A DNA stretch of 36,112 nt from an uncultured Clostridia bacterium. GTDB lineage: Bacteria > Bacillota > Clostridia > Oscillospirales > Oscillospiraceae. Both the position numbers and the translations under genes were made by a program. The DNA lies in the NCBI GenBank assembly GCA_945486035.1, contig CALYTB010000006.1, forward strand, positions 1 to 36,112, given 5' to 3'. The notes under the pieces were generated by a model. The model made no database searches, had not been told where the DNA came from, and saw only the letters and a program-made list of their open reading frames with translations. Every line of letters starts with the position of its first letter. Within the stretch, counting starts at the first letter, position 1. Shown here one piece after another: positions 9,855 to 15,662 of the stretch.

Positions 9855-9931
9855 CCGGGTGTGGCGAAGTTTGGTATCGCGCTTGAATGGGGTTCAAGAG
9901 GCCGCTGGTTCGAATCCAGTCACTCGGACCA
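9855..9931 (+). tRNA. tRNA-Pro (anticodon GGG), CCA encoded
   Basis: CCGGGTG TG GCGAAGTTTGGTATCGC G CTTGA ATGGGGT TCAAG AGGCC GCTGGTTCGAATCCAGT CACTCGG A CCA. Confidence 0.93.
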
Positions 9932-10767: not shown

Positions 10768-10936
10768 TTAAGGCAACACCGCATAATGGGGCAAGGAGAT
10801 TCGGCGAGAGTTTTTGACCCAAGCGAAAGTATGGAAAATGCGGGAATACTGGATGTATTCCCCATTTTTCATACTGCACGATTGGGTCAAAAGATCCGCC
10901 GAAGCCCGCAGCTCCCATTGTGCGGTGTTGCCTTAA
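10768..10936. mobile_element. MITE-like 169-bp near-palindromic element
   Basis: 16-bp perfect terminal inverted repeats TTAAGGCAACACCGCA...TGCGGTGTTGCCTTAA; two 82-bp arms that are largely complementary around a TGGAT loop; no ORF. Confidence 0.75.
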
Positions 10937-10939
10937 TAA

Positions 10940-11734
10940 TCAGAAGAGCTCATCCAAAAGCAGATAATACCGGATCTTCTCCCAATCCGGCTCGATCCCG
11001 AGGGCGGTGAAGAGGGAACTGGGGTTAAAGTCAGGGTACGCTCTGCCGCCATAGACTCCGCTGTAGTTATCCCTCAAGCTGCGGTAGCAAATGGCGATAT
11101 CCACCCACCGGTCCGCAACACCGGATCTTCCCAGATCAATGAGCCCGGAGAGCTTTCCGTTTTCAAAAAAGATATTGGGCAGACAGAAATCACCGTGGGT
11201 GAGGACGGGATCCAGCTCCGGCTTGTGGGAAGCAAGCCAGGTGAGCAAATGCCGGGGGCTCTGAAACCCGTCAGGGCCAAAGGTGCTGGGTTCCACATTT
11301 TCCAGATCAACGGTTCCCCGCTCTACAGCGGTTTGGGCAAGGGACAATTTGCTGTCCGGGGACCAGATGACCGGGCAATCGGAAATGTCAATCTGCCACA
11401 GACTCCTGAGGATATCTGCCAGGTTCTGAACAAGGATTTCTGGCGTTTGCATATTGGATTCACTGCATGCCATTGCGCCATGAATCCTGGACATGAGCAG
11501 ATAATCCAGACCGTTTTCCACAGCGTGATACAGGCATTCGGGAACCGGCAGTTTATCGGACATCCAGGTCATCATTGCGTACTCCGCTTTGGATTCCGGG
11601 GAATCCGTCTGGATTTTTAGCACGCGGTCATCAAAAAGTAATACATGGGAACCGGAGAGCCCTACGGAATCTACATGAAAAGGAGAATTGCCAAGGATGT
11701 TTCTCAGTTCCTGGGGCAATGGAATACTTTGCAT
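10940..11734 (-). CDS. APH(3')-like aminoglycoside phosphotransferase family protein
   Basis: LTHGDFCLPNIFF catalytic motif, SGLIDLGRSGVADRWVDIAICYRSLR, C-terminus LGIEPDWEKIRYYLLLDELF; closely resembles the APH(3')-III type. ORF-track start (11899) reads through a tRNA; ATG at 11734 gives 264 aa. Confidence 0.88.
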   Translation of the reverse strand: MQSIPLPQELRNILGNSPFHVDSVGLSGSHVLLFDDRVLKIQTDSPESKAEYAMMTWMSDKLPVPECLYHAVENGLDYLLMSRIHGAMACSESNMQTPEILVQNLADILRSLWQIDISDCPVIWSPDSKLSLAQTAVERGTVDLENVEPSTFGPDGFQSPRHLLTWLASHKPELDPVLTHGDFCLPNIFFENGKLSGLIDLGRSGVADRWVDIAICYRSLRDNYSGVYGGRAYPDFNPSSLFTALGIEPDWEKIRYYLLLDELF

Positions 11735-11765: not shown

Positions 11766-11805
11766 AAGAAAAGCACCTTTGCCCCCAAAGACAAAGGTGC
11801 TTTTT
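11766..11805. terminator. Bidirectional hairpin downstream of tRNA-Ser
   Basis: AAGCACCTTTG...CAAAGGTGCTTTTTT; minus-strand read also ends in TTTTCTT. Confidence 0.75.
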
Positions 11806-11897
11806 TGGCGGAGAAGGAGGGATTTGAACCCTCGATACCCTTTTGGGGTATACACGATTTCCAATCGTGCGCGCTCGGCCAGCTACGCGACTTCTCC
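11806..11897 (-). tRNA. tRNA-Ser (anticodon GGA), CCA encoded
   Basis: GGAGAAGTCGCGTAGCTGGCCGAGCGCGCACGATTGGAAATCGTGTATACCCCAAAAGGGTATCGAGGGTTCAAATCCCTCCTTCTCCGCCA; long variable arm. Confidence 0.95.
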
Positions 11898-11925: not shown

Positions 11926-11954
11926 ATAATACAATATTCTCGTCATTTTGTCAA
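11926..11954 (-). promoter_or_regulatory. Promoter of tRNA-Ser(GGA)
   Basis: Minus strand TTGACA-17 nt-TATTAT. Confidence 0.8.
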
Positions 11955-14399: not shown

Positions 14400-15662
14400 A
14401 TGAGAGTTGAATATGGCAAGCCGCAGGATATAGATGTCTGGATGGCTTTGGTGGAAGAGGTACGCTGGAATTTCCCGGGACTGGAAACGCAGGAGAAGCT
14501 GGATGATCACAGGGAAACTGTCCTGAAGTTTATGCGCAAACGGCAGGCCATCTGTGTAAAGGAAGGAAACGGGATTGCGGGTGTGATGCTGTTCTCCCGG
14601 GGATACAATATGATTTGCTGTCTTGCCGTTTCTCCAGCTTATCGCCGGCGTCATGCAGCATCCATGCTCATGGAGGAAGCCCTCCGCAATCTGGACCGGA
14701 CAAGGGAAATCTCCGTCTCCACCTTTCGGGCGGATGACGAAAAAGGAGTTGCTCCGAGAGCATTCTATGAAAAATTCGGGTTTATCGAGGATGCTCTTAT
14801 AGAAGAAATGGACTACCCGAATCAGAAGTATGTGATGCACCCCGAAAATTCGGAACGGAAGTTCAGACAAATTTCTGTCAACAAAATGGTGCGGGAAATC
14901 AGCGGCATTCTTTCGGATTGCGAACCGACAATTTATGTGTATGGCTCCTCCGCTCTGAACGACTTTCAATTGGGATGGAGCGACATTGATATCTTGGTTC
15001 TCACCGAAAGGAAGATTACAGAAAAACAGGCGCAAATGCTTGTGGGACTCCGGCAGACAATGCTTGAAAAAGAGCCTGGGAATCCTTATTATCGCTGCTT
15101 TGAGGGAGGAATGCTAACATTGGACGCTTTCCTTCGAAGGGGAACGGACACAGTGGTATATTGGGGGACAAGCGGAGAGCGTATTACAGATGGCTACTTG
15201 TTTGACAGCTTTTGCATGACAGAGCTGATTGAGAGCGGCGTACTGCTTTTGGGGAAGGATATCCGGCCGCAGCTGAAAGTACCCACTTTTGACGATCTGT
15301 ATGCTGATGTAAGGCACCATTACGGAACCATAAGAAAGCACGCGCAGAAAACAGGACGCAGCTTCTATTCCTTCGGGTGGATGCTGGATATCGCCAGATG
15401 TATCTATACACTGCGTACCGGCAGGATTCTCGCAAAGACGGAAGCCGGTAAATGGGCATTGGAAAACAACCTCTGCTCCGATCCGGATGCCCTTGAATTT
15501 GCCCTGAAGGTCCGCAGGAATCCTCTGGATTACAAAGATAATAGTCAGGTTTTTGACTACGCAGAAACGCTTGCGGAACCAATCCAACGCTTTGCGGATA
15601 TTTTGGAAAAAGAATTGATTTTGATTGGGGAACAGAAGGATGTCAAGAACGGAAGAGGTTGA
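14400..15662 (+). CDS. Fusion protein: N-terminal GNAT acetyltransferase + C-terminal aminoglycoside-adenylyltransferase-like nucleotidyltransferase
   Basis: GNAT part: MICCLAVSPAYRRRHAASMLMEEAL...FYEKFGF. NTase part: VYGSSALNDFQLGWSDIDILVL (GS...DxD) followed by an AadA/DUF4111-like C-terminal helical domain (IARCIYTLRTGRILAKTEAGKWALE). Confidence 0.82.
   Translation: MRVEYGKPQDIDVWMALVEEVRWNFPGLETQEKLDDHRETVLKFMRKRQAICVKEGNGIAGVMLFSRGYNMICCLAVSPAYRRRHAASMLMEEALRNLDRTREISVSTFRADDEKGVAPRAFYEKFGFIEDALIEEMDYPNQKYVMHPENSERKFRQISVNKMVREISGILSDCEPTIYVYGSSALNDFQLGWSDIDILVLTERKITEKQAQMLVGLRQTMLEKEPGNPYYRCFEGGMLTLDAFLRRGTDTVVYWGTSGERITDGYLFDSFCMTELIESGVLLLGKDIRPQLKVPTFDDLYADVRHHYGTIRKHAQKTGRSFYSFGWMLDIARCIYTLRTGRILAKTEAGKWALENNLCSDPDALEFALKVRRNPLDYKDNSQVFDYAETLAEPIQRFADILEKELILIGEQKDVKNGRG

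Follow-up and report, generated by a model that had tools for sequence, protein, structure and literature searches.

The locus and its surroundings

The gene discussed here, aph, is carried on contig CALYTB010000006.1 of an uncultured bacterium of the Clostridia, and the whole stretch of DNA that was analysed, 36,112 nucleotides, is referred to as the window. The reading frame opens with an ATG at 11734, closes with a TGA at 10942-10940 and codes for 264 amino acids with 0 internal stops. The genome that the window comes from is a draft, 78% complete with 4.9% contamination. An earlier note on this DNA had assigned the gene to a chromosome, and the assignment holds, as radical-SAM and DUF2344 genes, valS, ligA, era and three tRNA genes are located on the same contig. 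The contig is taken to be native to the organism because the DUF2344 gene, a neighbour of aph, is found in 105 of the 136 genomes of the genus. The features of the locus are listed in Table 1.

Table 1. Genes and other features at the aph locus, in window positions
Feature	Position	Strand	Description
tRNA-Pro(GGG)	9855..9931	+	last item of the gene order conserved in the genus; variable afterwards, aph included
162-bp near-palindromic MITE	10771..10932	none	ends AGGCAACACCGC / GCGGTGTTGCC; 7 bp past the stop codon of aph
aph(3')-like gene, 264 aa	10940..11734	minus	G25-x-S27 nucleotide loop, K40, H180-G-D182-F-C-L-P-N187, D200, R218, C-terminal D261-E262-L-F264
intrinsic-terminator-like hairpin	11769..11804	minus	16-pair stem and T-rich tail (consensus scan); between tRNA-Ser and the aph ATG, about 35 nt upstream
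tRNA-Ser(GGA)	11806..11897	minus	directly upstream of aph, same direction
best promoter-like site	11926..11954	minus	TTGACA-17-TATTAT, 11/12 (consensus scan); precedes tRNA-Ser
GNAT acetyltransferase fused to ANT/AadA-like nucleotidyltransferase	14400..15662	+	2.7 kb from aph

The gene order conserved in the genus consists of a radical SAM gene, the DUF2344 gene, a short conserved segment, sometimes a thioesterase gene, and tRNA-Pro(GGG). The aph gene lies past this tRNA; it is absent from the relatives whose loci extend beyond tRNA-Pro, and almost nothing of what they have there is shared with the window. The acyltransferase gene that adjoins aph has matches in 7/136 genomes of the genus. This rarity and the unshared region after tRNA-Pro therefore place aph in a variable chromosomal stretch. 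The GC content of aph, 52.5%, is that of its neighbours, so composition gives no hint of a recent transfer. The ORFs scanned near aph include no transposase, integrase, conjugation or plasmid gene and no second resistance gene of a known cassette. A tRNA gene as an integration site was also considered and rejected, as no tRNA recurs beside aph in the other loci.

The consensus scan scored no promoter between tRNA-Ser and aph, where the terminator-like hairpin is a strong one; on the minus strand the site ahead of the tRNA is the sole promoter-like sequence that scored well. The simplest guess is that aph may be transcribed by low-level read-through from the tRNA-Ser promoter. The MITE on the other side of the gene is flanked by 3-bp target duplications (TTA at 10768-10770 and 10933-10935), and TGA, CTA and CAA are found at other copies. 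It folds with a z of -14; the window genome has about 16 copies of full or nearly full length, and 71 of the 136 genomes of the genus have matches. The MITE is a neighbour and is no evidence that aph is mobile. A mobile unit bounded by two MITEs is excluded, since the contig has a single copy, on one side of the gene only.

The fusion gene 2.7 kb away has a second half that weakly resembles ANT(9)/AadA and has relatives in 11 other genomes of the 401 in the family. The fusion is a possible functional companion of aph, since relatives of its two halves are found beside aph(3') genes in other genomes. In one locus (L206) a relative of the second half overlaps the start of aph(3') by 4 bp, and a GNAT gene lies beyond aph(3'); in another (L058) aph(3') is followed directly by a relative (57%) of the first half. 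The first of these loci (L206:4591-7377), from another genus of the same family, has a nucleotidyltransferase, aph(3'), a GNAT gene that is weakly AAC(6')-like and a HAD hydrolase, which overlap or lie close together. As a possible relative of Sat4, the GNAT half of the fusion was rejected, as the similarity is not significant. The clade of aph genes described below has no conserved gene neighbourhood, and elsewhere its members adjoin unrelated single genes. Among 135 near neighbours of these genes, the 25 commonest Pfam families include no transposase or integrase family. An enrichment of GNAT genes beside aph(3') (23/135 near against 11/135 distant neighbours from the same loci, Fisher p = 0.04) is too weak to be retained.

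Family assignment and active site

The window protein matches the NCBIfam model NF033068 ("APH(3') family aminoglycoside O-phosphotransferase") with 242.1 bits and E = 6.6e-72 over residues 6-264; this is the APH(3') equivalog model, with a curated cut-off of 205 bits. Its sole Pfam match is APH, PF01636. When the protein was compared with solved structures by phmmer, APH(3')-IIIa chains came out on top with an E of about 1e-45, ahead of other APH(3') and APH(3'') chains. Given these two E values, the similarity to APH(3') is not due to chance. The AlphaFold model of the protein (36 input sequences) has a mean pLDDT of 94, and its top Foldseek match is the APH(3')-IIIa structure 1j7l with an E of 4e-23 and a TM of 0.85. 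APH(3') structures fill ranks 1-11, and the APH(2'') entries come far lower. Macrolide, fructosamine, homoserine and APH(2'') kinase identities are excluded by the profile scores and the fold ranking. The earlier note had named placement outside the APH(3') clade, for example with macrolide or fructosamine kinases, as the outcome that would overturn its proposal; profiles, fold and tree all place the protein inside.

The same note had regarded type III as the closest named subclass, which agrees with the tree, the fold ranking and the subclass profiles, where IIIa scores highest (163 bits, against 136 for IVa, 136 for II and 115 for I). The protein is not itself a member of the IIIa subclass. 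The cut-off of the IIIa model is 530 bits, and in the tree the protein falls in a different, fully supported clade. It is also far under every cut-off of the models for subclasses I, II, IV, V, VI, VII, VIII, XV and A16. The motifs quoted in the note, HGDFCLPN, IDLGRSGVADRWVDIA and LGIEPDWEKIRYYLLLDELF, are all found in the translation, and the ending that it gave for APH(3')-IIIa, LGIKPDWEKIKYYILLDELF, is correct. It was also right that the N-terminal half is the more divergent. Over its whole length the protein is 39% identical to APH(3')-IIIa, with 28% in the N-lobe (residues 1-84), 45% over residues 85-264 and 57% over the last 89 residues (176-264).

The active-site residues that were checked are retained. 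The equivalents of IIIa K44, D190, N195, D208, R226, D261, E262 and F264 are present in the window protein and are invariant in 63/63 clade members compared. The Brenner motif HxDxxxxN corresponds to H180-G-D182-F-C-L-P-N187, the metal-binding Asp lies in D200-L-G and the catalytic Lys is K40, all conserved in the clade. The drug-binding D-E-x-F is found at the C-terminus as D261-E262-L-F264 and the conserved Arg is R218; the row for APH(3'')-Ib differs at these positions. Structural and mutational work has assigned ATP binding, catalysis and drug binding to the conserved APH(3') residues (PMC3691515, PMC13148043).

Other positions set the clade apart. Tyr42 of IIIa, part of an F/Y-x-K motif, is replaced by Val in 60/63 clade members, and the window protein has V38-L-K40 in place of F/Y-x-K. 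Asp193 of IIIa is replaced by Leu in 62/63; Leu is also found at this position in APH(3')-IIa, and in APH(3')-IVb Asp192 is required (PMC13148043). Glu230 of IIIa is His in 47/63 members and Asp in the window protein. Glu60 is kept in the window protein and varies in the clade, in a part of the alignment that is possibly uncertain. In the clade the loop following the catalytic Lys is shortened and there is an insertion ahead of LGIEPDWEK. In view of the V-x-K motif and the Leu at the Asp193 position, the substrate spectrum and the nucleotide preference of the clade may differ from those of IIIa.

The clade and its distribution

In a careful tree of 55 sequences, from which VIa and APH(3'')-Ib were omitted for their very long branches, the window protein and the gut proteins form one clade with a support of 100/100. 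This clade adjoins the IIIa group (support 92/73), and IIa and Ia are further out. Subclasses IVa, V, VII, VIII and XV were judged through profile models alone. The gut and rumen clade is probably the sister of the IIIa group, and judged from its sequence the window protein is an APH(3') of a separate clade and not a divergent IIIa. Its closest companions in the tree are two proteins of the same genus at about 50-52% identity (support 90/88), and the nearest relative found is 55% identical. Clade members are about 50% identical to one another and belong to gut and rumen Lachnospiraceae, other Clostridia and Treponema. The Treponema (Spirochaetota) sequences are interleaved with those of Clostridia in the tree, which points to transfer across phyla.

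A search of 84,980 species genomes, with patterns derived from the window protein and thus no census, gave 55 loci, mostly 46-55% identical and nearly all from gut or rumen samples. The hosts are again Lachnospiraceae, other Clostridia and rumen Treponema. The earlier note had suggested a gut anaerobe as the host of the gene, and the gut and rumen MAGs that carry the named homologues make this probable. Within the genus of the window, a clade member occurs in 6/136 genomes, the window's own counted; one further genome encodes a protein with 100% identity to the plasmid-borne APH(3')-IIIa, and 23 more have a more distant homologue, mostly at about 30% identity. A match above the APH(3') cut-off occurs in 15/401 genomes of the family and 9/399 of the phylum. 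Many genomes are incomplete, and the counts for genus, family and phylum are lower bounds.

Three side observations were made during these searches. A second APH-like family (L008-L020, L147-L149, L151-L160 and L169) is common in the same genus and family; it is about 30% identical to the window protein and under the APH(3') cut-off, and the members that were extracted do not have the DELF C-terminus. Exact APH(3')-IIIa occurs in MAGs of the genus and family (L007 and L132-L134, with 100% identity checked for L007 and L132), therefore the mobile gene has entered such gut Clostridia. Clostridium simiarum MSJ-4 (L070:9944-10738) has a protein 79% identical to APH(3')-IIIa, encoded on a 1.7-Mb contig among ordinary neighbour genes. 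It is the closest non-identical relative of IIIa that was seen, in a search that was not aimed at IIIa, and it offers a clue to where aph(3')-IIIa came from.

Function, alternatives and known systems

The window gene is predicted to encode a functional aminoglycoside 3'-O-phosphotransferase of a deep clade that has no named subclass and is probably sister to the APH(3')-III group. The prediction of 3'-O-phosphorylation is based on family membership and the intact active site. MgATP would be bound through three conserved residues, K40, N187 and D200, and D182 would act as the catalytic base. Drugs of the kanamycin or neomycin type would be held at their neamine core by the C-terminal D261, E262 and F264. 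Phosphorylation at the 3'-hydroxyl, at the expense of ATP, would inactivate the drug, and resistance is predicted to result. Precedents for activity exist. Of the new aminoglycoside-modifying enzymes tested by Lund et al. (2023), 24/28, across all models, gave resistance in E. coli (PMC10400643), and APH(3')-IVb is active though it is 39.9% identical to its nearest named relative (PMC13148043). As to its history, we infer an accessory chromosomal gene that Clostridia and Treponema of the gut and rumen have repeatedly acquired or lost, with past horizontal transfer. Together with this account, the conclusion that the window gene is neither a core gene of the genus nor the source of mobile aph(3')-IIIa is given a probability of roughly 0.85.

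The earlier note had considered the gene as possibly intrinsic or a progenitor, and neither term is supported. The fuller form of this idea, a vertically inherited resistance gene of the genus that represents the ancestral pool of the mobilised aph(3')-III, is very improbable. The chromosomal setting, the GC content shared with the neighbours, the probable sister relation to the IIIa group and the further clade members within the genus are all consistent with it. Against it, the few genus genomes with a clade member (6/136) have proteins of about 50% mutual identity that do not all fall together on the tree, and each relative examined lacks a member at this position. Genome G122, the nearest relative when ranked on DUF2344 (76% identity), has no match. 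The genus has a single IIIa, which is 100% identical to the one on plasmids and was therefore imported. A progenitor is also hard to reconcile with 39% identity to IIIa and a place in a sister clade, whereas the C. simiarum protein is far closer. The accessory gene described above is also set against a copy that is silent or in decay, with the terminator ahead of it and the MITE inserted behind it as the blocks. Such a copy would fit the roughly 35 nt from the tRNA-Ser terminator to the start codon, in which no promoter was scored, and the MITE 7 bp past the stop codon, but the reading frame is full length with its active-site residues retained, and read-through from the tRNA-Ser promoter, or a promoter missed by the scan, is possible. 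Silencing is highly unlikely on this evidence.

Could the APH fold have been kept for another purpose? It has to be considered that the physiological substrate is another amino sugar or gut metabolite and that phosphorylation of aminoglycosides is incidental. The enzyme is widely present in anaerobes that are poorly susceptible to aminoglycosides, and the changes of Y42 to Val, D193 to Leu and often E230 to His are specific to the clade. The drug-contacting D261, E262, F264 and R226 are nevertheless invariant in the clade, the patchy spread across phyla suits a resistance gene better than a metabolic one, and an adjoining conserved metabolic partner was not found in the clade loci. This makes a different substrate very unlikely. 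A bolder reading, also unlikely, is that the clade represents a large separate APH(3') subclass (V-x-K, HGDxCLPN, E230 often His and an extra C-terminal loop) with altered nucleotide and drug specificity, which would defend anaerobes against aminoglycoside-like compounds of the gut, often with a companion nucleotidyltransferase and acetyltransferase. If true, it would be a chromosomal parallel to the ant(6)-sat4-aph(3')-III cassette.

As a putative APH(3') enzyme of its own clade, the window protein is a previously unnamed but ordinary addition to a well-known enzyme class. It is regarded as an added member because of its 39% identity to IIIa and 55% identity to its nearest relative, given the precedents in PMC10400643 and PMC13148043. 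Thousands of comparable predicted aminoglycoside-modifying enzymes have been catalogued already (PMC10400643). In the open-licence papers searched, no description of the gut clade was found. The finding of interest is that APH(3') enzymes far removed from the named subclasses occur as single chromosomal genes across Clostridia and Treponema of the gut and rumen. Models of known subclasses label this reservoir just 'APH(3') family'. Anaerobes take up aminoglycosides poorly and are poorly susceptible to them (PMC12188727), so the benefit of aph to such a host is uncertain, and the clade bears on the reason why organisms with scant uptake retain aph genes. Resistance is predicted, and no new risk is shown.

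Among the known systems, APH(3')-IIIa (aph(3')-IIIa; PDB 1J7L, 1L8T), which is mobile in Staphylococcus, Enterococcus and Campylobacter, is the closest in several respects. Both proteins have 264 residues, the same fold and the equivalents of D190, N195, D208 and K44, the IIIa subclass model gives the top score, and the C-terminus PDWEKIxYYxLLDELF is near-identical. However, the window protein has a gap of 5 residues behind its catalytic Lys, about 8 extra residues ahead of LGIEPDWEK, HGDFCLPN in place of the HGDLGDSN of IIIa, and Val in place of Y42. The window gene is also chromosomal and outside any ant(6)-sat4-aph cassette. The H-G-D-x-C-L-P-N catalytic loop is shared with APH(3')-IIa and the APH(3')-II family, but identity to IIa is 33% and the branch is separate and fully supported. 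Likened by description, the gene resembles APH(3')-IVb of Riemerella anatipestifer (PMC13148043), which is chromosomal, has no mobile-element genes around it and is about 40% identical to its nearest named enzyme. APH(3')-IVb is acquired, its authors assign it to the type IV clade, and it has been tested experimentally (PMC13148043). Also by description, the window gene is of the same kind as the families predicted by Lund et al., who reported 1,146 new families with <70% identity under their APH(3')/APH(3'') model (PMC10400643).
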